Of a stretch of DNA of 64,000 nucleotides, positions 48,148 through 61,286 are shown one piece after another. The position numbers and the translations under genes were made by a program. Every line of letters starts with the position of its first letter. The first letter of the stretch is position 1. Origin of the DNA: Aureimonas ureilytica DSM 18598 = NBRC 106430 (GTDB lineage: Bacteria > Pseudomonadota > Alphaproteobacteria > Rhizobiales > Rhizobiaceae); assembly GCF_000382705.1 (NCBI RefSeq), contig NZ_ARQE01000003.1, positions 496,001 to 560,000 of the forward strand. The letters are read 5' to 3'. Under the pieces are notes generated by a model. The model was not told where the DNA came from and made no database searches. It was given only the letters and a program-made list of their open reading frames with translations.

Positions 48148-48600
48148 ATGCGCAAGATCACGATCCTGTCCGCCGCTCTTCTCGCCGCCGCCGTCTCCCA
48201 CGCTTCCGCGCAGGACCAGCACGGCATGGCGGCGTCGTCGGAGCAGGTGACGCTCCCCGCCGCCTGCGAGGCCGCCGCCGGGTCCATGGACATGTCCAAG
48301 ATGATGGGCGGCATGGAGGGCATGATGTCCGGCGGCCAGATGGACGAGGTCCAGAAGGGCAACATGGACGCGATGATGAAGATGCACGGCCCCATGATGA
48401 AGGCGGCCATGATCAAGGACCCGGACCTCGCGTTCAACTGCGGGATGATCGCCCATCACCAGGGTGCGATCGCCATGTCCGAGGTCGAGCTCAAGACGGG
48501 CAAGGACGAGAAGTCCAAGGAGATGGCCCGGATGATCATCGACGCGCAGAAGAAGGAAATCGAGGAGATGACCGCCCGCGTCGAGGCGCTCGCGAAGTAA
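48148..48600 (+). CDS. DUF305 periplasmic protein (Met-rich), copy 1
   Basis: A 150-residue exported protein with signal peptide 1-20 (ending SHASA). The middle is methionine-rich (MDMSKMMGGMEGMMSGG), then the DUF305 core contains NCGMIAHHQGAIAMSEVEL. DUF305 is a ferritin-like helical domain often found beside copper resistance genes; the Met and His pairs could bind copper. AGGAA lies before the ATG at 48148. The 281 bases upstream (47867-48147) hold no recognisable gene. Confidence 0.88.
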   Translation: MRKITILSAALLAAAVSHASAQDQHGMAASSEQVTLPAACEAAAGSMDMSKMMGGMEGMMSGGQMDEVQKGNMDAMMKMHGPMMKAAMIKDPDLAFNCGMIAHHQGAIAMSEVELKTGKDEKSKEMARMIIDAQKKEIEEMTARVEALAK

Positions 48601-48671
48601 GCGGCGGACCCGTGCCCCGGGGGCGGCCGCCTCCGGGGCATCTCGACACACCAACGAACGGAGCAGGAGCT

Positions 48672-49184
48672 ATGGGTTACGGACGGTTCGCCGCGATGAT
48701 CGCGACCTCGACGGTCGTGATGTTCGGCTTGATGTACCTAAACACATACGCGCTCGACCACGTCTTCTACAGCCAGACGCGGACGTGGATGGCCGTGGTG
48801 ATGGGTGCCGTGATGGCACTGATCATGATCGGCTTCATGTGGGGGATGTACCCCAGGAAGGGTACCAACGCGGCCATCGTCGCGGCCGGCGTCGTCGTCT
48901 TCGCCGGGGCCCTGTGGCTCGTGCGCAGCCAGGAGACCGTCCACGACGTCGCCTACATGAAGGCGATGATCCCCCACCACTCCATCGCGATCATGACGAG
49001 CGAGCGCGCACACATTCGCGACCCGCGGGTCCGCGAGCTCGCCGACGGCATCGTGGAGGCGCAGGTCCGCGAGATCGGGGAGATGGAGCGCCTCATCGCA
49101 GACCTCGAGGCCAACCCGCCCGCCGACGGCGCACCGGACCTGCCGCCGCGGATGCCCGAGGCCGCCATCGCGGCCGGCAATTGA
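48672..49184 (+). CDS. DUF305 protein with N-terminal membrane domain, copy 2
   Basis: A 170-residue protein with three membrane helices (starting at residues about 6, 34 and 57) and then the DUF305 core AMIPHHSIAIMTSERA, facing the periplasm. This arrangement is common near copper and mercury determinants. GCAGGAG lies directly before the ATG at 48672. It is probably in one transcript with copy 1 and the glutaredoxin fusion gene. Confidence 0.87.
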   Translation: MGYGRFAAMIATSTVVMFGLMYLNTYALDHVFYSQTRTWMAVVMGAVMALIMIGFMWGMYPRKGTNAAIVAAGVVVFAGALWLVRSQETVHDVAYMKAMIPHHSIAIMTSERAHIRDPRVRELADGIVEAQVREIGEMERLIADLEANPPADGAPDLPPRMPEAAIAAGN

Positions 49185-51742: not shown

Positions 51743-51802
51743 GCGGGTCTCCTATCGACATGGGTTCGCATGCTCGGAGAAATCCAAGCATGCGCCGCGG
51801 TT

Positions 51803-51858
51803 TCGATAGGAGTCATCAGCCCGACGCGGGCGGTTGTGGGGGAACCCCATCCCCGTAG
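51803..51858 (-). ncRNA. Fluoride riboswitch (crcB motif) controlling crcB
   Basis: Read on minus, the conserved elements are GGGGATGGGG, TTCCCCC, ACAACCGCC, and GGGCTGATGACTCCT, the crcB-motif consensus. The 3' end CTCCTATCGA is the exact complement of TCGATAGGAG at 51749-51758, which holds the crcB ribosome binding site. Control is therefore likely at translation start. A separate hairpin (GCATGCT...AGCATGC, 51768-51793) lies between them. Confidence 0.92.
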
Positions 51859-51895
51859 CGATGAGACGGTAACGCGCTCTCGCGAGGTTGGGAAG

Positions 51896-52699
51896 TCACC
51901 GCTCCCACCCTTCCGTGCGCATCAAAGCCTGCGCCTCCGGTGTGACCAGGAATTCGGCGAACTCCTTCGCCTGCGGATCGGCGTCCGGAGCGACCGCAAT
52001 GTTCAGGTCGCGCCAGATGCGGCGGTCCGTCTCGATCGGCACGGCGTCGAGCACGTCGGCCTTCGTCACCGTCCAGTCCGGCCACGTGATCCAGGCGTCC
52101 GCATCGAGATCCCCGAACGCCTTGAAGCTGGCGCCAGAGCCGGTGGAGAAGCTGACGATGTTGCGGCGGAAGCGCTCGATGTCCGACAGCCTGCCGAGAC
52201 GGCCCGCCACGTCCTCCCAGGTTCCGGTGCCCGACGTGTTGGCGACGCCCGACCCTTCCGTGACGACAATCCGCATGCCGTCCTTCAGGAGGTCCTCGAA
52301 GCCCTGGATCCCCTTCGGATTGCCTTTCTTCACCGCGATCACGGTGGGACGGACGTAGATCGGCTGAACTTGGGTCGACGAGAAGGTCTTGTAGGTCTGG
52401 AGGAAGGCCGTCATCGACTGCTCGGACGTGCCCCAGATGATGTCGGCATCACCCTGGGCCTTCTTCGACCACGTGCCCTCCGGGCCGGCGGTGATCTCGA
52501 CCTTGTTCCCGGTCTGCCGCATCCAAAGGTCGGCGACCTTCTGGAACGCCGTGTTGGGTCCGCCCGCACCGTAGAGGCGAACGACGCCGTCCTTCGGCTC
52601 GTGCCGGATGGTGGGATCGAACAGTTCGGTGTCGGCGGCCTGCGCGAAAGCGCATGCGGCAAGCACGGCGCCGGCAGCAAGAAGTGGAAGGCGGAACAT
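51896..52699 (-). CDS. AcfC-like periplasmic substrate-binding protein
   Basis: A 267-residue exported binding protein (signal peptide about 1-21, ending AFAQA). The N-terminal lobe carries LYGAGGPNTAFQKVADLW and TAGPEGTWSKKAQGDADII, which match the accessory colonization factor AcfC group, relatives of molybdate/sulfate binding proteins. There is no permease or ATPase gene nearby. The start at 52699 has CAGGAG six bases upstream. A sigma-factor-type promoter motif lies 61 bases before it. Confidence 0.82.
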   Translation of the reverse strand: MFRLPLLAAGAVLAACAFAQAADTELFDPTIRHEPKDGVVRLYGAGGPNTAFQKVADLWMRQTGNKVEITAGPEGTWSKKAQGDADIIWGTSEQSMTAFLQTYKTFSSTQVQPIYVRPTVIAVKKGNPKGIQGFEDLLKDGMRIVVTEGSGVANTSGTGTWEDVAGRLGRLSDIERFRRNIVSFSTGSGASFKAFGDLDADAWITWPDWTVTKADVLDAVPIETDRRIWRDLNIAVAPDADPQAKEFAEFLVTPEAQALMRTEGWER

Positions 52700-52760: not shown

Positions 52761-52787
52761 GGGACGCTGCCCGCCGGAGTTTATTCC
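52761..52787 (-). promoter_or_regulatory. ECF-type promoter motif before AcfC-like gene
   Basis: On minus: GGAATAA, 14 bases, CGTCCC. It has the same elements and spacing as the motifs at 52822-52848 and 57638-57664. Confidence 0.65.
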
Positions 52788-52821
52788 GCGAGACGCACCC
52801 GAGATTTTTGCCAATCGCACG

Positions 52822-52848
52822 GGAATAAGGGATCGTCGGCAGCGTCTC
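52822..52848 (+). promoter_or_regulatory. ECF-type promoter motif before SnoaL-sigma operon
   Basis: GGAATAA, 14 bases, CGTCTC, ending 39 bases before the start of the NTF2-like gene. It suggests that the sigma factor gene is autoregulated. Confidence 0.68.
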
Positions 52849-52887
52849 GGCATGGTCAGCAATCTCCGACGTCGAGGACGAACACCC

Positions 52888-53304
52888 ATGAAGACCCTTC
52901 TCGCCACCGCGGCCATGGCCGTGATCACGGCAACCGCAGCCCATGCCGGCCCTGCCGCCGACATGGCGCAGGCCCGCATCGCATCGATCGCCAAGGGGGA
53001 CACCGCCGCAGTCGCAGGCGCCTACGGTGACGGCGCGACCCTTCATTGGGTAGGCGGCCCGCTCGACGGCACCTACAAGGGTTCCGAGATCAAGGCGGTC
53101 TGGGAGAAGTTCGCCAAGGCCCAGCCGAACCTGACCGCGAACGTCATGGGCGTCTCGGAGGCGATGAACCCGAAGGGTGCGACCGTCACCGCGAACGTCG
53201 TGTTCGCGGGCAAGGACAAGATTCCCGTGCGCTACGTCATGCTGTTCCGCGACGGCAAGCTTGCCGACGAGATCTGGCAGGTCGACCCGGCGCTCGCGAA
53301 GTAA
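52888..53304 (+). CDS. Secreted SnoaL/NTF2-like protein
   Basis: A 138-residue protein with signal peptide 1-20 (ending AAHA) and a cone-shaped NTF2-like (SnoaL/DUF4440) domain (AQARIASIAKGDTAAVAGAY, GATLHWVGGP, YVMLFRDGKL). The ligand is unknown. It is the first gene of the operon with the ECF sigma factor, so it may be the stress-responsive effector. GAGGACG precedes the ATG at 52888. Confidence 0.8.
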   Translation: MKTLLATAAMAVITATAAHAGPAADMAQARIASIAKGDTAAVAGAYGDGATLHWVGGPLDGTYKGSEIKAVWEKFAKAQPNLTANVMGVSEAMNPKGATVTANVVFAGKDKIPVRYVMLFRDGKLADEIWQVDPALAK

Positions 53305-53325
53305 GGCCGGGAAGCGAGGGCCGCC

Positions 53326-53841
53326 ATGAGCGAGGATGAGATCGCACGGTTGGTGGAACCGCTGATCCCGGGGCTGCGGCGCTATGCCTACGCCCTAGTG
53401 CGGGACGCCACAGCCGCCGACGATCTCGTCCAGGACTGTTTGGAGCGCGTCGTCGGGCGCTGGCACCTGCGCCGCCCCGACGGCGACCTGCGCGCCTGGA
53501 TCTACGCCATCCTGCGCAACCTTCACCTGTCGGCTCTGCGCCAGGGCCGCCGGCGCGGCGAGCACGTCGGGCTCGACGACATGGCCGAGCCGCCCGGAGT
53601 CGATGGCGGCCAGTTGGGCAAGGCCGAGTTCCGCGACGTCCTCGCCGGCCTAGAGACGCTCAGCGAGGAGCACCGCACGGTGCTTCTTCTCGTCGGCGTC
53701 GAAGACCTGAGCTACGAGGAGACCGCCAAGGTCACGGGACTGCCGATCGGAACCGTGATGTCGCGCCTGTCGCGTGCCCGGGAGCGCTTGCGCTCTTATC
53801 TCGACCATGGCGCGAGGCCGAACCTCAGGAGGGTCAAGTGA
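53326..53841 (+). CDS. ECF-family RNA polymerase sigma factor
   Basis: A 171-residue sigma factor with only regions 2 and 4. Region 2 is YAYALVRDATAADDLVQD; region 4 includes LSEEHRTVLLLVGVEDLSYEE and the recognition helix GLPIGTVMSRLSRARERL. It is followed, with a four-base overlap (GTGA), by its likely anti-sigma factor. It probably recognises the GGAATRA-N14-CGTCYY motifs found in the island. Confidence 0.93.
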   Translation: MSEDEIARLVEPLIPGLRRYAYALVRDATAADDLVQDCLERVVGRWHLRRPDGDLRAWIYAILRNLHLSALRQGRRRGEHVGLDDMAEPPGVDGGQLGKAEFRDVLAGLETLSEEHRTVLLLVGVEDLSYEETAKVTGLPIGTVMSRLSRARERLRSYLDHGARPNLRRVK

Positions 53842-54650
53842 ACCCGATCGATCTTCCCGTCGGCGAGGACGACCTCCAGGCCTATCTCGACGGGCGTCTC
53901 GGTGCCGAACGCGTCGAAGCGGTGGAACGCTATCTCGTGGACCACCCTGCGATCGCCGCCGACCTGGAGCGGGATCGCAGGCTGCTCGCCGAGTTGCGCG
54001 ACCGCCTTGGGCCCAAGGCCGCCGAACCCATCCCGGCTCGCCTTCGCATCTCCAGCATCCGCGCCGGGGTGCGCCGTCGCCGGCTGCTTCATCTACGGTC
54101 GGTCGCGGCCGTCTGCGCCTGGCTCGCACTCGGCGGGCTCGGGGGCTGGATGGCGAACGGCATCCTCGGCGCCCCGAACGCCGAACCCGTCCGCACCGCC
54201 CGCATGGCGGACGACGCGATCGCGGCCTACCGCACCTTCGTGGTCGAGGTCGTCCATCCCGTCGAGGTCAGGGCCGACGAGGGAGCCCATCTCGTGGGCT
54301 GGCTGTCGAAGCGGCTGCGAACGCCGATCACCGTCCCAGACCTTACCCGGCTCGGCTACCGCCTGATGGGCGGCCGCCTTCTGCCGGGTCGTTCCGGTCC
54401 GGCCGCGATGCTGATGTACGACGATGACGCGGGCACGCGGCTGACGCTGTACGTCAAGACGGATGAGACGGAGGAGACGTCGTTCCAGTTCGTCGAGGAG
54501 GACGGCGTATCCGCCTTCCTGTGGCGCGACCGCGGCCTTGGCTATGTCGTGACGGCCGCGACAGCCCGCGAGGCGTTGATGCCGGTCGCCCGGCTCGTCT
54601 ACGACGAACTGGAGCGACCGCCGGAGCCCAAGCCCGCGAACCAGCTTTGA
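53838..54650 (+). CDS. Transmembrane anti-sigma factor
   Basis: A 270-residue protein starting at GTG 53838, overlapping the sigma stop. The N-terminal cytoplasmic part has the anti-sigma helix DDLQAYLDGRLGAERVEAV but no zinc HxxxCxxC motif. One membrane helix lies near residues 88-107 (AAVCAWLALGGLGGW). The periplasmic domain (about 120-260) ends in LWRDRGLGYVVTA and would sense the signal. Confidence 0.88.
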   Translation: MNPIDLPVGEDDLQAYLDGRLGAERVEAVERYLVDHPAIAADLERDRRLLAELRDRLGPKAAEPIPARLRISSIRAGVRRRRLLHLRSVAAVCAWLALGGLGGWMANGILGAPNAEPVRTARMADDAIAAYRTFVVEVVHPVEVRADEGAHLVGWLSKRLRTPITVPDLTRLGYRLMGGRLLPGRSGPAAMLMYDDDAGTRLTLYVKTDETEETSFQFVEEDGVSAFLWRDRGLGYVVTAATAREALMPVARLVYDELERPPEPKPANQL

Positions 54651-54659
54651 GGAGCGCCC

Positions 54660-55559
54660 GTGACGCTGGAACAGCTTCGCATCTTCGTCGCGGTCGCCGA
54701 GCGCCAACACGTGACCGAGGCGGCGCGGTCGTTGAACCTCACGCAGTCGGCCACGAGCTCGGCGCTGGCCGCGCTGGAGAGCCGTCACGGCGTCCGTCTG
54801 TTCGACCGGGTCGGGCGCGGCATCGAGTTGACCGAGGCGGGACGGTTGTTCCTCCCGGAAGCGCGCTCGGTCCTCGCACGGGCCGCGGAGGCGGCCAAGG
54901 CACTCGACGATCTGACCGACCTTCGGCGCGGGCATGTCGCGCTGGCAGCCAGCCAGACGGTCGCCAACCACTGGCTTCCACCTCGCATGCGGCACTTCCG
55001 CGAACGCCATCCCGGCATCACCCTCTCCCTGCGGATCGCCAACACACTGGAGGTCAGCGAGGCGGTGGCCGCCGGGGATGCCGATCTCGGCTTCGTCGAG
55101 GACGAACTGCGCGATCCGCGTCTGCGCACGACCCGTGTCGCCGACGACCGGCTCGTTCTCGTCGCATCCCCAGGTGCTGAATCGCCCAAGGGCGCCCCGC
55201 CACGCGTCCCGGAGCTTGCAGGGGTGAGATGGGTCATGCGCGAGCCCGGATCCGGCACGCGTAGCATTCTGGAAGACGCGCTGCGGGGCGCGGGCATCGA
55301 TCCCGCCGCATTGTCGGTCGATCTCGAACTCCCGTCCAACGAGGCCGTGCGATCAGCCATCGAGGCCGGCGGCGTCGTGGGCGTCCTGCCGCTCGCAGTG
55401 GCTCAGCCGGGACTGCGGAGCCGGACGCTGATCGAGATCGCCTTTGCGCTTCCCGCTCGCGGCTTCCATGCGGTGGAGATGAAGGAGCGCAGCCTCAGCC
55501 GAGCGGCATCGGCGTTCCTGCACGAGCTTCGAAACGACCATCCGGGTCCGGGCGCGTGA
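54660..55559 (+). CDS. LysR-family transcriptional regulator
   Basis: A 299-residue regulator starting at GTG 54660, nine bases after the anti-sigma gene. The N-terminal helix-turn-helix is HVTEAARSLNLTQSATSSAL; a CysB-like effector domain follows (WLPPRMRHFRERHPGI, PGSGTRSILEDALR). The stop overlaps the next gene (GTGA). The target is unknown; the TDT transporter downstream is a candidate. Confidence 0.88.
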   Translation: MTLEQLRIFVAVAERQHVTEAARSLNLTQSATSSALAALESRHGVRLFDRVGRGIELTEAGRLFLPEARSVLARAAEAAKALDDLTDLRRGHVALAASQTVANHWLPPRMRHFRERHPGITLSLRIANTLEVSEAVAAGDADLGFVEDELRDPRLRTTRVADDRLVLVASPGAESPKGAPPRVPELAGVRWVMREPGSGTRSILEDALRGAGIDPAALSVDLELPSNEAVRSAIEAGGVVGVLPLAVAQPGLRSRTLIEIAFALPARGFHAVEMKERSLSRAASAFLHELRNDHPGPGA

Positions 55560-56215
55560 CAGGCAACCAGAAGACGGGGCTGGATCGTCTCGTCATGCAC
55601 ATGGCCGCATCGGCCGGGATGCCGACCCTCTTCAATCCCTACGCCGACACGGACCCGGCGGTCGATGTTCCGGATGCCGCTTCGATCCGCTGCCGCAACC
55701 TTCGGCGATACCTCCATGCGTTTGCCGGACGGGACGGCATCGACCTATGGCTCGGTGAAGCGCCTTCGAGGTTCGGAGCCCGGCGCACGGGCGTGCCCTT
55801 CACGGGCGAAGGCCGACTGGTCGACCTCTCCTCGCGCCTTGCCATCGCACCGTTCGAGATCGCCACGACGGCCGACGCCTCCGCCGCACCGCCGTCCGGC
55901 ACCTCGCGCCAGATCTGGGATGCACTGCCGGAACGGCTGCCCCTGTTCTGGAACGCGGTGATGCACCACCCGCACCGGACGGGGATACCCGTGCGCAACC
56001 GAACGCCGTCCCGGTCCGAGATCACTAGGTCTCGGGACACACTGGCGCTTCTCGTCGAAGCCATCCGACCCCGTCGCATCCTCGCCATCGGTCGAGTGGC
56101 GGAAGGCGCGAGCGAAGGGTTCGGCGTACCGGTCACCTACGTCCGCCATCCCGCCCAGGGCGGTGCGGCAAAGTTCCAGGCTGGCGCGGCTGCGTTTCGT
56201 TCTGAAGGGTCGTGA
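55556..56215 (+). CDS. Uracil-DNA glycosylase-superfamily-like protein
   Basis: A 219-residue protein. Features of the uracil-DNA glycosylase fold are WLGEAPSRFGARRTGVPFTGE (the water-activating loop and substrate turn, where GEAPG..E is usual), FWNAVMHHPH in mid chain, and a C-terminal YVRHPAQGG in place of the HPS loop. The activity is uncertain: the match is to the superfamily, not to a named subgroup. It is translationally coupled to the LysR gene. Confidence 0.65.
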   Translation: MTGNQKTGLDRLVMHMAASAGMPTLFNPYADTDPAVDVPDAASIRCRNLRRYLHAFAGRDGIDLWLGEAPSRFGARRTGVPFTGEGRLVDLSSRLAIAPFEIATTADASAAPPSGTSRQIWDALPERLPLFWNAVMHHPHRTGIPVRNRTPSRSEITRSRDTLALLVEAIRPRRILAIGRVAEGASEGFGVPVTYVRHPAQGGAAKFQAGAAAFRSEGS

Positions 56216-56318
56216 CGACAGTCGGTTCTTGGCTGTGTCGGGAAGGACGCTCGCCAGCCCCGCCCGCATTCCTTCAGGGCGGGTTCCGAGGGCATGATCG
56301 GGTCAGCACAAAGGTGGA

Positions 56319-57470
56319 TCAGCCGGCCTTGAGGCAGGGAGCGACGAAGAGGTCGCCGCGCCACGCGCCCCGGACCGTGCGCACCGCCACGATCGACCAA
56401 ACCACGGCCAGAAGTGCGACCAGCGCCACGCCGAAGCCGTGGATCGCGGGAATGGGCAGGATGGTGCCGAGCTTCAGCGTCGTCACGGCGTAGACGCCGA
56501 TCGGGAACGTGTAACCCCACCAGCCTAGATTGAACGGCAGGCCTTCCCTGACGTAGCGGACCGTGACCAGCGTCGCGATGGCGAGCCACCACAGGCCGTA
56601 GCCCCAGAGAAGCAGGCCGCCGACGAGGCCAACGCCCTCCATCGTCGCCCCGAAGCGGTCCAGCCCGTTGGCGGCGAGGATCGCGGGGGCGGCTCCGCCC
56701 AGCGTCATCAGGCCAAGCGCGCCGGTGCCGATGGGGCCGAGCGCCAGCCAACTCGACGAGGCCATGGATGCGTGCGGCAGCTTATGGACGGCGAGCCGCA
56801 GAACGAGCACGACGAGGACGCTCATCGCGATCGGTACCGACAGGGCCCAGAGCGCGTAGGACAGCGTGAGGACGAGGAGCTGGCTCTGCGGGTCGGCGAG
56901 ATGGGGTGCAAGCAGCCCGCCCGACACCGCGGCGACCTCGGCCGCCACCATCGGCAGAAGCCAGACCGCGGTCATCTGGTCGATCGAGTGGCTTTGGCGC
57001 GTGAACATCATGTAGGGGATCGCGATCCCGCAGGCCGCCGCCATTGCGACGTCGATCCACCAGAGCGTCTCGGCGATCCCGACCGCGGCGGAGCCGAAGC
57101 GCGGTAGTCCGAAGACGAGGAAACCGTTGATGATGGTGGCGAGCCCCATCGGAATGCAGCCGAAGAACATCGACACGACGGAATGGCCGAAGATGCGCTT
57201 GGCCCCGTCGAAGAAGAAGATCCAGCGGGCGGCGTAGAGCGCGGTGAACAGGGCGAAGAGCCCGATGTTCAGCATCCACAGCCCTTCCCCGATCGCATGG
57301 AGGACCGGGACCGCGGTCCCGAACTGCGCGAGCGCGATGGCCAGGATGCCCGTCCCCATGGTGGCGGCGAACCAGTTCGGGGTGAACTGGCGCACCACCT
57401 CGCGGGGGCTGTCGAGGCGCGACAGCGGGTGGAGGCCGAGCGAGACGGCACGCATCTGTTCGAAGGTCAT
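56319..57470 (-). CDS. TDT-family transporter (TehA/SLAC1/Ssu1 type)
   Basis: A 383-residue inner-membrane protein with about ten helices, recognised by FTPNWFAATMGTGILAIAL near residue 30. The superfamily includes bacterial TehA, plant SLAC1 and the yeast sulfite pump Ssu1. With a sulfite-oxidase-family gene and an ECF regulon nearby, sulfite efflux is a sensible guess, but tellurite, dicarboxylate or anion channel roles are equally possible from sequence alone. Confidence 0.85.
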   Translation of the reverse strand: MTFEQMRAVSLGLHPLSRLDSPREVVRQFTPNWFAATMGTGILAIALAQFGTAVPVLHAIGEGLWMLNIGLFALFTALYAARWIFFFDGAKRIFGHSVVSMFFGCIPMGLATIINGFLVFGLPRFGSAAVGIAETLWWIDVAMAAACGIAIPYMMFTRQSHSIDQMTAVWLLPMVAAEVAAVSGGLLAPHLADPQSQLLVLTLSYALWALSVPIAMSVLVVLVLRLAVHKLPHASMASSSWLALGPIGTGALGLMTLGGAAPAILAANGLDRFGATMEGVGLVGGLLLWGYGLWWLAIATLVTVRYVREGLPFNLGWWGYTFPIGVYAVTTLKLGTILPIPAIHGFGVALVALLAVVWSIVAVRTVRGAWRGDLFVAPCLKAG

Positions 57471-57510
57471 GGGCGGAGGTCCTTTTTCTGCTCAGACCAT
57501 GCGCGGCGGC

Positions 57511-57536
57511 GACGGATTCATCCAACGCGTTGTTCC
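57511..57536 (-). promoter_or_regulatory. Weaker ECF-type motif before TDT gene
   Basis: On minus: GGAACAA, 15 bases, CGTC. It has one base more spacing and a changed -35 box compared with the three better copies. It ends about 40 bases before the TDT start. Confidence 0.35.
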
Positions 57537-57637
57537 GGTCTTTCCGATCGGTTGCATCGATCGGTTGCTTCCAGCGTCGGACCGGCAGCGGCGGACGCGC
57601 TCTCGGCTCCGCGTCGCGGAAAAAAGTCGCGACGTCG

Positions 57638-57664
57638 GGAATGAAAGCGTTCGCCGAGCGTCTT
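57638..57664 (+). promoter_or_regulatory. ECF-type promoter motif before DUF305/propeller operon
   Basis: GGAATGA, 14 bases, CGTCTT, ending 36 bases before the DUF305 start. The spacing is identical to the two motifs near the sigma operon, nearly 5 kb away. Confidence 0.62.
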
Positions 57665-57700: not shown

Positions 57701-58105
57701 ATGTTGAAGACGCTCCTCCTCGCCCTCGCCTTCGCCGGGATGTCATTGACTTCGGCCGAAGCGCAGGACGCTCGTGCCCATCAGCATGCGACGATGGCAC
57801 CAGCCTCGCCCGACGGCTCGCCCTATGCGCAAGCGACCGCGGCGGCGATGGAGACGATGCACGCAGGCATGATGTCGGCGCCGGTGACCGGCGACCCCGA
57901 TCATGACTTCCTGTCCCAGATGATCCCGCATCATCAGGGTGCGATCGACATGGCGAAGGCTGTCCTCGGATCGACCGAGGACCCGGCGATCCGCAACCTC
58001 GCCCAGTCCATCATCACCGAACAGACCTACGAGATCACGCTGATGCGCTCGATGCTTGCCGCATCAGCCGACACCGCGAAACCCGTTCCGGAGACGACCC
58101 CATGA
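57701..58105 (+). CDS. DUF305 periplasmic protein, copy 3
   Basis: A 134-residue exported protein (signal peptide about 1-25, LLLALAFAGMSLTSAEA) with the DUF305 core HDFLSQMIPHHQGAIDMAK and a second His/Met region (HAGMMSAP). GGAGGA precedes the ATG at 57701. Its stop overlaps the beta-propeller gene (ATGA), so the two are one unit. Confidence 0.88.
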   Translation: MLKTLLLALAFAGMSLTSAEAQDARAHQHATMAPASPDGSPYAQATAAAMETMHAGMMSAPVTGDPDHDFLSQMIPHHQGAIDMAKAVLGSTEDPAIRNLAQSIITEQTYEITLMRSMLAASADTAKPVPETTP

Positions 58106-59484
58106 CCCGCACCGCCATCCTCGCCGCCGCGCTCGTCGTCTCGACATCGGCCTTCGCGCTGCCTGCCGCCTCCGATCGCGTCTATACCGCCGACCAGAAC
58201 TCCAACACGGTGTCTGTCATCGACCCCGTCGGGAACACGTTGCTCGGCCAGATCCGCCTCGGCAATCCACGCCCGGACGTTCTGAGCCCGCTCTACAAGG
58301 GCGAGGTCAACGTCCACGGCCTCGGGTTCTCGCCGGACCACAAGACGCTCGTCGTCGTCTCGACCGTCACGAACTCCGTCACCTTCATCGATACGGCGAC
58401 CAACGCGGTGAAGGGCACGACCTATGTCGGGCGCAACCCGCACGAGGCCTTCTTCACGCCGGACGGCGCGCAAGTCTGGGCGACGGTGCGCGGGGAGGAC
58501 TACCTCTCGGTGATCGATGCCGCGACCTTCAAGGAAACAGGTCGCATCCCGACGACGAGCGGTCCGGGCATGACGAAGTTCTCCCGCGACGGCAAGTTCG
58601 CCTTCGTCGCGAACTCGTTCAATCCGGTGCTGGAGGTCTTCGACGTCGCGAGCCACGCGCTCGTCAAGCGCATTCCTGTCGTCTCGCCCTTCGTGCCCTT
58701 CGTGCAGGTCAGCCCCGACGGCAGCGACGTCTGGCTGACGCACAAGGACGTCGGCAAGGTCACGCGCGTCGATGCTAGGACGCTCGAGGTGAAGGAGGTC
58801 ATCGACAGCGGGCCGATCTCCAACCATCTCGGCTTCGGCACGGTAAACGGGGAGACGCTGGTCTATGTCACGATCGGCGGCGAGAACGTCGTGAAGGTCT
58901 ACAAGCCCGGAGAGAAGACAGAACTCGTCGCAACCATTCCGGTGGGCGCCCTGCCCCACGGCATCTGGGGATCCGACGACGGCAGCCGTATCTTCGTTGG
59001 GCTCGAGAATGACGATCGGGTCGATGTGATCGACACGGCCGAGCAGAAGGTCGTCGCCGAGATCCCGATCGGACAGGCCCCGCAGGCGCTCGTCTTCGTG
59101 CCGGGCGCGGTCCCGGATGGTGCGGGCACCGAGAACCTTGTGCCGCTGAAGGCGGGTCCGGAGAACCTAACGCTTTCGCTGAAGGCGCCTGAGGGGGCCA
59201 CTGGCTCCGGGATGGTCGTGTCGCGCAATCTCGGGCTCGTCGACGCGATCGATGTCAGCGTCGCCAAGCTGAAGCCGATGACGGAGTACGGCGTCTTCTT
59301 CGAAGGACAGGACGAGCCCGTCGTGGTGCTGAAGACCAACGACAAGGGAGCCGGCATGGCCTCCAGCATCGGCCCGGTGCGCACGCTTGCCGTCCCGGGG
59401 GAGCCGACGGCGGGGGAGGAGCCGCGGCTGGTCGTGGTCGAGGGTCTGAAAGCCACCGCCGCCCCGGTCCTCAGCAGCCGCTAG
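58102..59484 (+). CDS. YVTN-type beta-propeller periplasmic protein
   Basis: A 460-residue exported protein (signal peptide 1-19). It is built of repeated propeller blades: VYTADQNSNTVSVIDP, FSPDHKTLVVVSTVTNSV, FVANSFNPVLEVFDV, and GSRIFVGLENDDRVDVID. The last 100 residues form a different beta-domain. Propellers of this kind bind partner proteins or metals. Coupling to DUF305 and control by the same promoter motif as the sigma operon suggest a stress-response surface or redox role. Confidence 0.87.
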   Translation: MTRTAILAAALVVSTSAFALPAASDRVYTADQNSNTVSVIDPVGNTLLGQIRLGNPRPDVLSPLYKGEVNVHGLGFSPDHKTLVVVSTVTNSVTFIDTATNAVKGTTYVGRNPHEAFFTPDGAQVWATVRGEDYLSVIDAATFKETGRIPTTSGPGMTKFSRDGKFAFVANSFNPVLEVFDVASHALVKRIPVVSPFVPFVQVSPDGSDVWLTHKDVGKVTRVDARTLEVKEVIDSGPISNHLGFGTVNGETLVYVTIGGENVVKVYKPGEKTELVATIPVGALPHGIWGSDDGSRIFVGLENDDRVDVIDTAEQKVVAEIPIGQAPQALVFVPGAVPDGAGTENLVPLKAGPENLTLSLKAPEGATGSGMVVSRNLGLVDAIDVSVAKLKPMTEYGVFFEGQDEPVVVLKTNDKGAGMASSIGPVRTLAVPGEPTAGEEPRLVVVEGLKATAAPVLSSR

Positions 59485-59809: not shown

Positions 59810-60994
59810 TTAGCCGACGCTGACCGAGACGCGATGCCATGAATTGGCGAGGTAGCCCTTCCAGTTCCAGATCCTCGCGATGTCCTCGGGTTGCGAACCG
59901 CCGACCTCGTCGAAGGAACGGACGGCGAGCTGGTGCTGACCGGCCGGCAGGTCGAGGACAACGGACCAGAAGACCCACGCCCATTGAGTATCGGCCCGCT
60001 TGTCGATGGCGGCCTCGTGCCAGTTCTCGCCACCGTCGTAGGAGACCTCGACCTTCGCGACGCCATTTTGCGTCCCGATCGCGTAACCCTCGATTGTCGT
60101 CGTTCCCGGCCTCAATGTTGCCCCGGCCGCCGGCATGCAGATCGCGGAATTCAGCGGCATGTCGTTGATGACGACGTTCGGGTCCTTGTCGGCCGTCTCC
60201 TTCGTCGTCGTCGGGGGAAAGAGCCGATACTCCTTGCGCTGGATCGGGGTATCGGCCTCTTCGTCCTGCACCATGATGGAGGCCAACCATTTGGGGCTGC
60301 GCGTTCCCGCATAGCCGGGTACCACGACGCGTAGGGGAAAGCCGTGCTCGGCCATCAACGGCTCGCCGTTCATGGCCCATGCGAGGAGCACGTCCGGCGT
60401 CATCGCCTTCTCGAGCGGGATCGAAACGCCGTAGTCGAAGCGGTCATCCTTCATGACCACCTCGTCGTGAGCGGAGAAGGCGACGTGCAACCCGCTACCG
60501 TCTTCGACGCCGGCAGCGCTCAGGACGTCGGCAAGTGAAACGCCTGTCCACTCCGCATTGCCGATCGCTCCGGGACCCCAGAGATCACCCTCGACATACC
60601 CGACGTCGACCATGTCGGCCCGGCGGTTGCCGGCGCACTGCATGACGGCCATCACCTTGCGCTCGGGAAAGCGTGACTTGAGATCCGAGAGCGACAGCTC
60701 GATGGGCGCTCTCACCTTGCCGCCGATCGTCAGCCTGTAGCCCGCCTCCTCGATCGTCGGCACGGTGCCGTGGTCGCGGATATAGAACTCGGCCTGGGGC
60801 GTGACGAAGGCGGACCGGAGCTTGGCGATCGGCGTCTCGGCGTTCAGGGGAAGCTTGCTGTGGACGAGCAAGTCGCTGGAAGGCTCGGAGGGTGCCGCCA
60901 TGGTCGCCGACGCCGAAGCGGCGGAAGCGGGCCATGTCGTACGAGCCACTGCGATGGAACTTGCCCCCTGGAGCACGGCGCGTCTTGTGAGCAT
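59810..60994 (-). CDS. Sulfite oxidase-family molybdopterin enzyme (SoxC/SorA type)
   Basis: A 394-residue periplasmic enzyme. The N-terminus LTRRAVLQG and following hydrophobic stretch form a Tat-type signal. The molybdenum-ligand cysteine is C120 in MQCAGNRR; the oxidoreductase domain also has GFPLRVVVPGYAGTRSPKWL. A C-terminal dimerisation domain follows (GYAIGTQNGVAKVEVSYDGGE). It probably oxidises sulfite to sulfate; no cytochrome c partner gene is adjacent. The start at 60994 has GGAG upstream and begins the Tat motif. Confidence 0.9.
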   Translation of the reverse strand: MLTRRAVLQGASSIAVARTTWPASAASASATMAAPSEPSSDLLVHSKLPLNAETPIAKLRSAFVTPQAEFYIRDHGTVPTIEEAGYRLTIGGKVRAPIELSLSDLKSRFPERKVMAVMQCAGNRRADMVDVGYVEGDLWGPGAIGNAEWTGVSLADVLSAAGVEDGSGLHVAFSAHDEVVMKDDRFDYGVSIPLEKAMTPDVLLAWAMNGEPLMAEHGFPLRVVVPGYAGTRSPKWLASIMVQDEEADTPIQRKEYRLFPPTTTKETADKDPNVVINDMPLNSAICMPAAGATLRPGTTTIEGYAIGTQNGVAKVEVSYDGGENWHEAAIDKRADTQWAWVFWSVVLDLPAGQHQLAVRSFDEVGGSQPEDIARIWNWKGYLANSWHRVSVSVG

Positions 60995-61096
60995 GGTGAC
61001 ATCTCCGAGGGCGCAGGAAACTGCGTCAGGAGAGAGCAACATTCCCTTCGCCTACCAGTTCCCCGTTGGCGTATCTCGCGACGCACGAGGCCCGCG

Positions 61097-61126
61097 TTGA
61101 CAATGCTCGCGGCGATCACGTAGACG
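61097..61126 (+). promoter_or_regulatory. Candidate sigma-70 promoter for CLC-F unit
   Basis: TTGACA at 61097-61102 and TAGACG at 61121-61126, spaced 18 bases, placed so that transcription would start just before the fluoride riboswitch. Confidence 0.45.
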
Positions 61127-61134
61127 TCATGAAC

Positions 61135-61194
61135 GGCAATGGATTCTGCCGGGCCTCGCGCCGAACCGCTCCCCGATGGGCTGATGACTCCTAC
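61135..61194 (+). ncRNA. Fluoride riboswitch (crcB motif) before CLC-F gene
   Basis: The elements GGCAATGGATTCTGCC, GAACCGCT and GGGCTGATGACTCCTAC appear in consensus order. It is followed at once by a hairpin (CTACTC-CACCCGC / GCGGGC-GAGTAG, 61191-61222) that shares its last bases and could form the switching stem. The antiporter gene starts about 65 bases downstream of that hairpin. Confidence 0.9.
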
Positions 61195-61286
61195 TCCACC
61201 CGCAACACACGCGGGCGAGTAGTCATGTCCGGCCCGTGTTTCCCGACACTCCGTCTGATCGCTCCGCCCTCATCCGGAGCCAGACC

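Follow-up and report, generated by a model that had tools for sequence, protein, structure and literature searches.

The closest described relatives of the regulon considered here depend on two sigma factors of the ECF26 family of extracytoplasmic function (ECF) sigma factors, both cited throughout from excerpts of the papers concerned. In Sinorhizobium meliloti, RpoE1 activates SMc02156, which encodes an AcfC-like protein (PMC3511301). In Starkeya novella (now Ancylobacter novellus), SnRpoE1 activates the promoter of the DUF305 gene Snov_0990, located 12 bases ahead of the YVTN propeller gene Snov_0991, and was active on tetrathionate but not on thiosulfate (PMC6527743). The ECF26 consensus of these two bacteria comprises a −35 element GGAAT(A) and a −10 element CGTC, and a one-base difference in spacing has been noted among ECF26 promoters (PMC6527743, PMC6180224). 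We analysed a stretch of 64,000 nucleotides of Aureimonas ureilytica DSM 18598 = NBRC 106430 (contig NZ_ARQE01000003.1, positions 496,001 to 560,000; hereafter the window), in which a genomic island carries three copies of the motif GGAATRA-N14-CGTCYY: before an operon for an NTF2-like protein, an ECF sigma factor and a putative anti-sigma factor, before the divergent acfC gene, and before a pair of genes for a DUF305 protein and a beta-propeller protein. Rewritten as GGAAT-N16-CGTC, this motif is the published ECF26 consensus, and the three sites are very probably promoters recognized by the RpoE1-like, ECF26-type sigma factor that the island itself encodes.

The initial annotation of the window had placed this motif before the three units, 35 to 65 bases from a start codon and with a spacer of exactly 14 bases in each case. 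A pattern scan confirmed the three sites without a single mismatch, each with the N14 spacer and each at the position and on the strand proposed (Table 1), and found no further exact match elsewhere in the window. The end of the motif is separated from the ATG by 61 bases for acfC (ATG at 52699), 39 for the NTF2-like gene (ATG at 52888) and 36 for the DUF305 gene (ATG at 57701).

We then considered whether the motif could be a chance coincidence in a GC-rich genome. When the window was shuffled 300 times with a first-order Markov model, only two exact matches arose in all (on average 0.007 per 64 kb, never more than one per shuffle), compared with three in the real sequence. When two mismatches were tolerated, the eight matches in the window were ordinary, since 29 of 100 shuffles reached that number, and the short form GGAAT-N15/16/17-CGTC occurs 166 times in the genome; both counts speak for coincidence. 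As the motif was defined after the sites had been seen, independent tests across genomes weigh more than any of these figures. They contradict coincidence, since the sites keep their place, strand and spacing from one genome of the genus to another whereas most bases of the spacer vary, and we regard this explanation as having practically no probability left. In the whole genome (5.09 Mb) there are five exact matches, the three of the window and two that belong to a further sigma operon, located on contig 19, so that the motif is not confined to the island. The looser pattern GGAATNA-N14-CGTC gave 14 matches, nine of them off the island; a crude gene call places five of these inside predicted genes, one across the border of a predicted gene and two between genes without a downstream start, and the ninth falls within open frames on both strands.

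The same promoters were found in other genomes of the genus. The sigma gene is present in 13 of the 21 genomes examined. A search of all 21 for the exact motif gave 35 matches, of which 32 are at promoters of the sigma operon, of acfC or of the DUF305-propeller pair; the other three lie within long open frames. A reversed pattern gave four matches in the same genomes, which is a weak control since its composition differs. All 13 sigma-bearing genomes contain the exact motif, against one of the eight genomes devoid of the sigma gene, where the single match lies inside open frames (Fisher p 7e-5, a value that ignores shared ancestry and inheritance of the island as one piece). The propeller gene has a similar distribution (12/13 and 0/8 genomes, respectively). 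At the 15 sigma loci of the genus, the window and the second copy included, an N16 site always ends 462 to 480 bases before the sigma start, and a divergent second site accompanies it at seven. In the four fully fetched loci among the eight lacking this second site (L068-L071), acfC is absent. We also aligned upstream regions chosen independently of the motif, which replace an earlier column conservation from motif-picked sites that was circular. In the alignments of nine NTF2-like, six acfC and six DUF305 different upstream regions, the −35 and −10 blocks are kept and most of the spacer bases change.

To score sites beyond exact matches, a weight matrix was derived from the promoters of sigma operons in this and other genomes (31 different sequences), with a threshold of 9.4, the 99% value of shuffled sequence; the gene starts used in this test were tblastn ends and are therefore approximate. 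The threshold was passed by 34 of 40 DUF305 upstream regions and by 7 of 10 acfC regions. The NTF2-like genes (22/23) gave a partly circular result. Only 1 of 38 propeller upstream regions passed, this gene being located inside the DUF305 unit. No region passed for the anti-sigma (0/93), LysR (0/24), UDG-like (0/9), crcB (0/6) and CLC (0/5) genes, or for two further island genes (0/3 each). In random real stretches of 260 bases from the same loci, the 99% score was 16.3 instead of 9.4 because these loci contain true sites, and the DUF305 median was 18.5. Published S. meliloti promoters, taken from part of one table (PMC6180224; SMc04046, SMb20593, SMb20475 and SMc01151 are among those left out), were scored as well. 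The six promoters of RpoE1, RpoE3 or RpoE4 had empirical P values of 0.002 or less, the weakest being SMc02156 with a score of 4.4. The seven other promoters scored below these six, the nearest one being that of the ECF15 gene rpoE5 (P 0.02); the rpoE6 promoter, itself that of an ECF26 gene, is among the seven and is missed by the matrix. Since ECF26-type sites precede most DUF305 genes found beside such sigma genes, these data suggest that the DUF305 and propeller proteins are core outputs of this sigma branch. The pair lies near the sigma gene at many of the fetched sigma loci, where it either stands ahead of the sigma and anti-sigma genes, with DUF305 first and the propeller second, or is transcribed divergently from sigma. 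Taken together, these comparisons show that the window has three predicted promoters of the ECF26 type, that they are conserved, and that they are linked to the sigma gene.

Table 1. Predicted promoters, genes and regulatory elements of the island (positions in the window)
Feature	Position	Strand	Supporting evidence
acfC promoter	52761..52787	-	−35 GGAAT 52783-52787, N16, −10 CGTC 52763-52766; exact motif; matrix score 22.1
NTF2-like/sigma/anti-sigma operon promoter	52822..52848	+	−35 GGAAT 52822-52826, N16, −10 CGTC 52843-52846; exact motif; matrix score 27.3
DUF305/beta-propeller pair promoter	57638..57664	+	−35 GGAAT 57638-57642, N16, −10 CGTC 57659-57662; exact motif; matrix score 24.8
AcfC/PEB3-like periplasmic binding protein, predicted target	51896..52699	-	PF13531; PEB3 and AcfC chains, E ~1e-59
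NTF2/SnoaL-like protein, first in sigma operon	52888..53304	+	PF12680, E 1e-4, under its cut-off
ECF sigma factor, probable RpoE1-like ECF26 type	53326..53841	+	PF08281, PF04542, PF22029; tree; promoter class
Putative membrane anti-sigma factor	53838..54650	+	Weak anti-sigma model matches; hydrophobic stretch at about residues 88-110 (by eye)
LysR-type regulator behind sigma operon, possible TDT controller	54660..55559	+	PF03466, PF00126
DUF305 (CopM-like) protein, predicted target	57701..58105	+	PF03713; CopM model 89.1 bits, cut-off 90
YVTN/YncE-like beta-propeller protein, second gene of predicted target pair	58102..59484	+	PF21783; beta_rpt_yvtn
TDT/SLAC1-family anion transporter, not counted as target	56319..57470	-	PF03595; TIGR00816 under cut-off
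Conserved element before TDT (inverted repeat and CGCGTTGGAT), probable LysR operator	57520..57564	-	Alignment of 9 different TDT upstream regions
Sulfite-oxidase-family molybdoenzyme	59810..61042	-	PF00174, PF03404; sulfite oxidases in PDB
Fluoride riboswitch (RF01734) before crcB	51800-51863	-	
Fluoride riboswitch (RF01734) before CLC-type gene	61126-61200	+	CLC-type gene with DUF190-like end (by eye)

We next looked at the proteins of the sigma locus. From its promoter class, its domains and a quick tree, the island sigma factor probably belongs to the ECF26 family. It is identical to a protein of Aureimonas endophytica, the nearest named record. In the tree of ECF sigma proteins, whose branches are long, it falls within a well-populated alphaproteobacterial set, as sister to sigma genes located behind DUF305-propeller pairs; the Sinorhizobium RpoE1-like and RpoE4-like rows stand on long, unsure branches. 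The putative anti-sigma factor is 33-34% identical (120-123 bits) to the protein encoded behind the RpoE1-like gene in three Sinorhizobium-type genomes. ECF26 anti-sigma factors are encoded directly downstream of the sigma gene and have an N-terminal anti-sigma domain, one membrane helix and a periplasmic C-terminus; the gene position agrees here, whereas the matches to anti-sigma models are weak and the candidate helix was picked out by eye. The N-terminus of the NTF2-like protein, also judged by eye, resembles a signal peptide. Further DUF305-type genes of the island are located at 48262-49184 without the motif upstream, and the one tested (48612-49184) fails the matrix threshold.

The copy of the sigma operon on contig 19 (L009 7080-14125) bears on which sigma factor reads the three promoters. 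It comprises crcB, acfC, the NTF2-like gene, a sigma gene whose product is 91% identical to that of the window, and the anti-sigma, LysR, UDG-like and TDT genes, with the same divergent promoter pair; no DUF305-propeller match was found in this sigma region. An extra thioredoxin-like reading frame was seen by eye near its TDT gene. A second sigma operon and a second acfC with the same promoters make cross-activation likely. The window sites might thus be genuine ECF promoters read mainly by another sigma factor, either this 91% identical copy or the general stress factor EcfG (ECF15). Cross-reading is what the shared promoter pair would lead one to expect, RpoE1 and RpoE4 of S. meliloti do cross-activate (PMC3511301), and the rpoE5 promoter came nearest among the seven other published ones. 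Nevertheless, 11 of the 13 sigma-bearing genomes have only one such sigma gene (E 1e-40) and still contain the sites, the eight genomes without the sigma gene have a single exact match between them, and the rpoE5 promoter reads GGAAC and has no CGTC (PMC6180224). We therefore consider it unlikely that another factor is the main reader, and favour the island's own sigma factor.

Several observations nevertheless weigh against an RpoE1-like factor acting on its own promoters. The contig-19 copy could do part of the work, and the window sigma factor shares no more than about 40% identity with the RpoE1-like proteins of the Sinorhizobium-type genomes. No AcfC match at E 0.001 was found in the Sinorhizobium-type genome G562, whose rpoE1 promoter is the nearest to the published one (1 mismatch), and G605 has weak AcfC matches only, which leaves a close AcfC relative in one of the three Sinorhizobium-type genomes. 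That genome, G642, encodes a protein 69% identical to the window AcfC, preceded by a sequence almost the same as the mapped promoter of SMc02156. Lastly, the site before the sulfite-oxidase-family gene of the island, AGAAT-N16-CGTC (61121-61147), scores 5.8 and stays below the threshold of 9.4.

This last site shares positions with the fluoride riboswitch on the opposite strand, and two of three different upstream regions retain it; with such a score, the sulfite-oxidase-family gene is not supported as a target. Among molybdoenzyme genes, 12 of 27 pass the matrix, all of them distant SorT-like relatives (30-37%); one of these 12, at L075, is an edge-match artefact, so that 11 of 26 are valid. 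At two loci of relatives (L067 11335-13888 and L072 2219-4894), a second ECF gene and a SorT-like molybdoenzyme gene are found behind an ECF26-type promoter, an arrangement like that of RpoE4-sorT beside RpoE1.

A weaker site, with N15, had also been reported before the TDT gene. The string does exist (57511-57536, minus strand, score 3.6), in the form GGAAC-N17-CGTC 40 bases ahead of the TDT start, but it is not conserved. In favour of TDT as a fourth, weaker member of the regulon, 3.6 is close to the 4.4 of SMc02156, a proven weak promoter, and for this reason the case against TDT rests on non-conservation. None of 16 different TDT upstream regions reaches the matrix threshold, and in nine aligned regions GGAAC is kept in five and the aligned CGTC in one, compared with CGTTGGA in nine and CGCGTTGGAT in eight. 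The conserved element covers the spacer of the weak site, and just upstream of CGTTGGA/CGCGTTGGAT stands an inverted repeat, CCGATCG-N7-CGATCGG. TDT as a fourth target is thus very unlikely. Given the inverted repeat and the adjoining LysR gene, a LysR operator is the better reading, and the element before TDT is probably one. The LysR protein is nearest to the selenium-metabolism LysR and YeiE models, under their cut-offs in both cases; YeiE reportedly binds sulfite and controls resistance to it in Salmonella (PMC12880088, in the part cited).

Altogether, the initial proposal of a self-contained regulon of the island's ECF sigma factor is supported for the three units, by virtue of the consensus and of the link to the sigma gene across the genus. 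It is supported neither for TDT nor as regards self-containment: the contig-19 copy shares the promoters, and other island genes use other switches, namely fluoride riboswitches and the probable LysR operator. From what is known of these protein families, the sigma factor would be held at rest by the product of the next gene, the putative membrane anti-sigma factor. Judging from relatives only, the releasing signal would most likely be sulfite, or a sulfur compound that yields it; a response to sulfite-related signals is not common to every ECF26 factor. Once freed, the sigma factor would take RNA polymerase to GGAAT-N16-CGTC before its own operon, resulting in autoregulation, and this operon would include the NTF2-like, sigma and anti-sigma genes and perhaps the LysR and UDG-like genes. 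It would also drive the divergent AcfC-like gene and the DUF305 and propeller pair.

The island was also compared with other genomes of the genus. From about 46.3 kb (46253) to at least 63.9 kb (63875) of the window, nucleotide identity with one of them (G004) is 99.1%, and from 46.9 kb to the window's end identity with another (G019) is 99.9%, compared with mostly 73-88% for both between 26 and 45 kb. By these identities, the island has moved recently and horizontally between species of the genus; its promoters moved along with it, and the regulon travels. As an example of a sigma factor moving between species with the promoters it reads, it is both clean and testable. The 17-kb island may tentatively be seen as a mobile, pre-wired stress module with separate switches, which would carry its own transcriptional programme along into every new host. 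An ECF26 sigma factor with its own promoters would drive secreted proteins (AcfC-like, DUF305 and propeller), the LysR protein would drive TDT, riboswitches would control the fluoride exporters, and feedback on the anti-sigma factor would come from the NTF2-like protein, secreted in this scheme; we hold this whole scheme to be possible rather than probable. No title or abstract opening describing this island was found in a literature search that was thin on subscription journals.

How does this locus compare with the known systems? An ECF16-type hypochlorite response was considered and rejected; the ECF16 consensus is (T/C)GTAAC-N17-CGAA, and the ECF16 anti-sigma factor has six membrane helices (PMC8315932, in the part cited). 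S. meliloti RpoE4-sorT and St. novella SigE-sorAB share with the window the promoter class and the location of a sulfite oxidase gene close to that of an ECF26 sigma factor; they differ in that the sulfite-oxidase-family gene of the window has no above-threshold site. The RpoE1 regulon of S. meliloti (SMc01418-rpoE1-ecfR1 and SMc02156) is similar in promoter class, in having a secreted-protein gene ahead of the sigma gene and an anti-sigma gene after it, and in its AcfC-like periplasmic second target. In contrast, the first gene of its operon encodes a lipoprotein-15 repeat protein (PMC3511301) instead of an NTF2-like protein, SMc02156 forms a separate locus whereas the window acfC is divergent from the sigma operon, and the RpoE1 targets listed in PMC3511301 include no DUF305-propeller pair.

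St. novella has in common with the window the DUF305-propeller pair, an ECF26 sigma factor with an anti-sigma partner, and the −35 GGAAT and −10 CGTC elements. By locus number, DUF305 and propeller come first there and sigma and anti-sigma follow, and no activation was seen with the sequence ahead of the sigma gene (PMC6527743), unlike the window, where the sigma operon has its own predicted promoter and the DUF305-propeller pair is a separate unit. No AcfC target is named for St. novella in the excerpts cited. Ancylobacter mangrovi (L126) shows the St. novella order, with a site ahead of DUF305. In this locus (L126 8001-12878), two ECF26-like sigma/anti-sigma pairs are arranged in tandem with the DUF305-propeller pair between them. 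With SMc02156 in S. meliloti and Snov_0990 in St. novella, both additional targets proposed for the window have an experimental precedent, in two organisms. At the sequence level, the window carries the traits of an RpoE1-type regulon, namely predicted promoters before the sigma operon, the AcfC-like gene and the DUF305-propeller pair. It thus looks like a known kind of small regulon, the RpoE1-type of ECF26, in a new and mobile setting, and like an unusually complete example, in which one regulon would join two separately known ECF26 targets, the AcfC-like gene of S. meliloti and the DUF305-propeller pair of St. novella.

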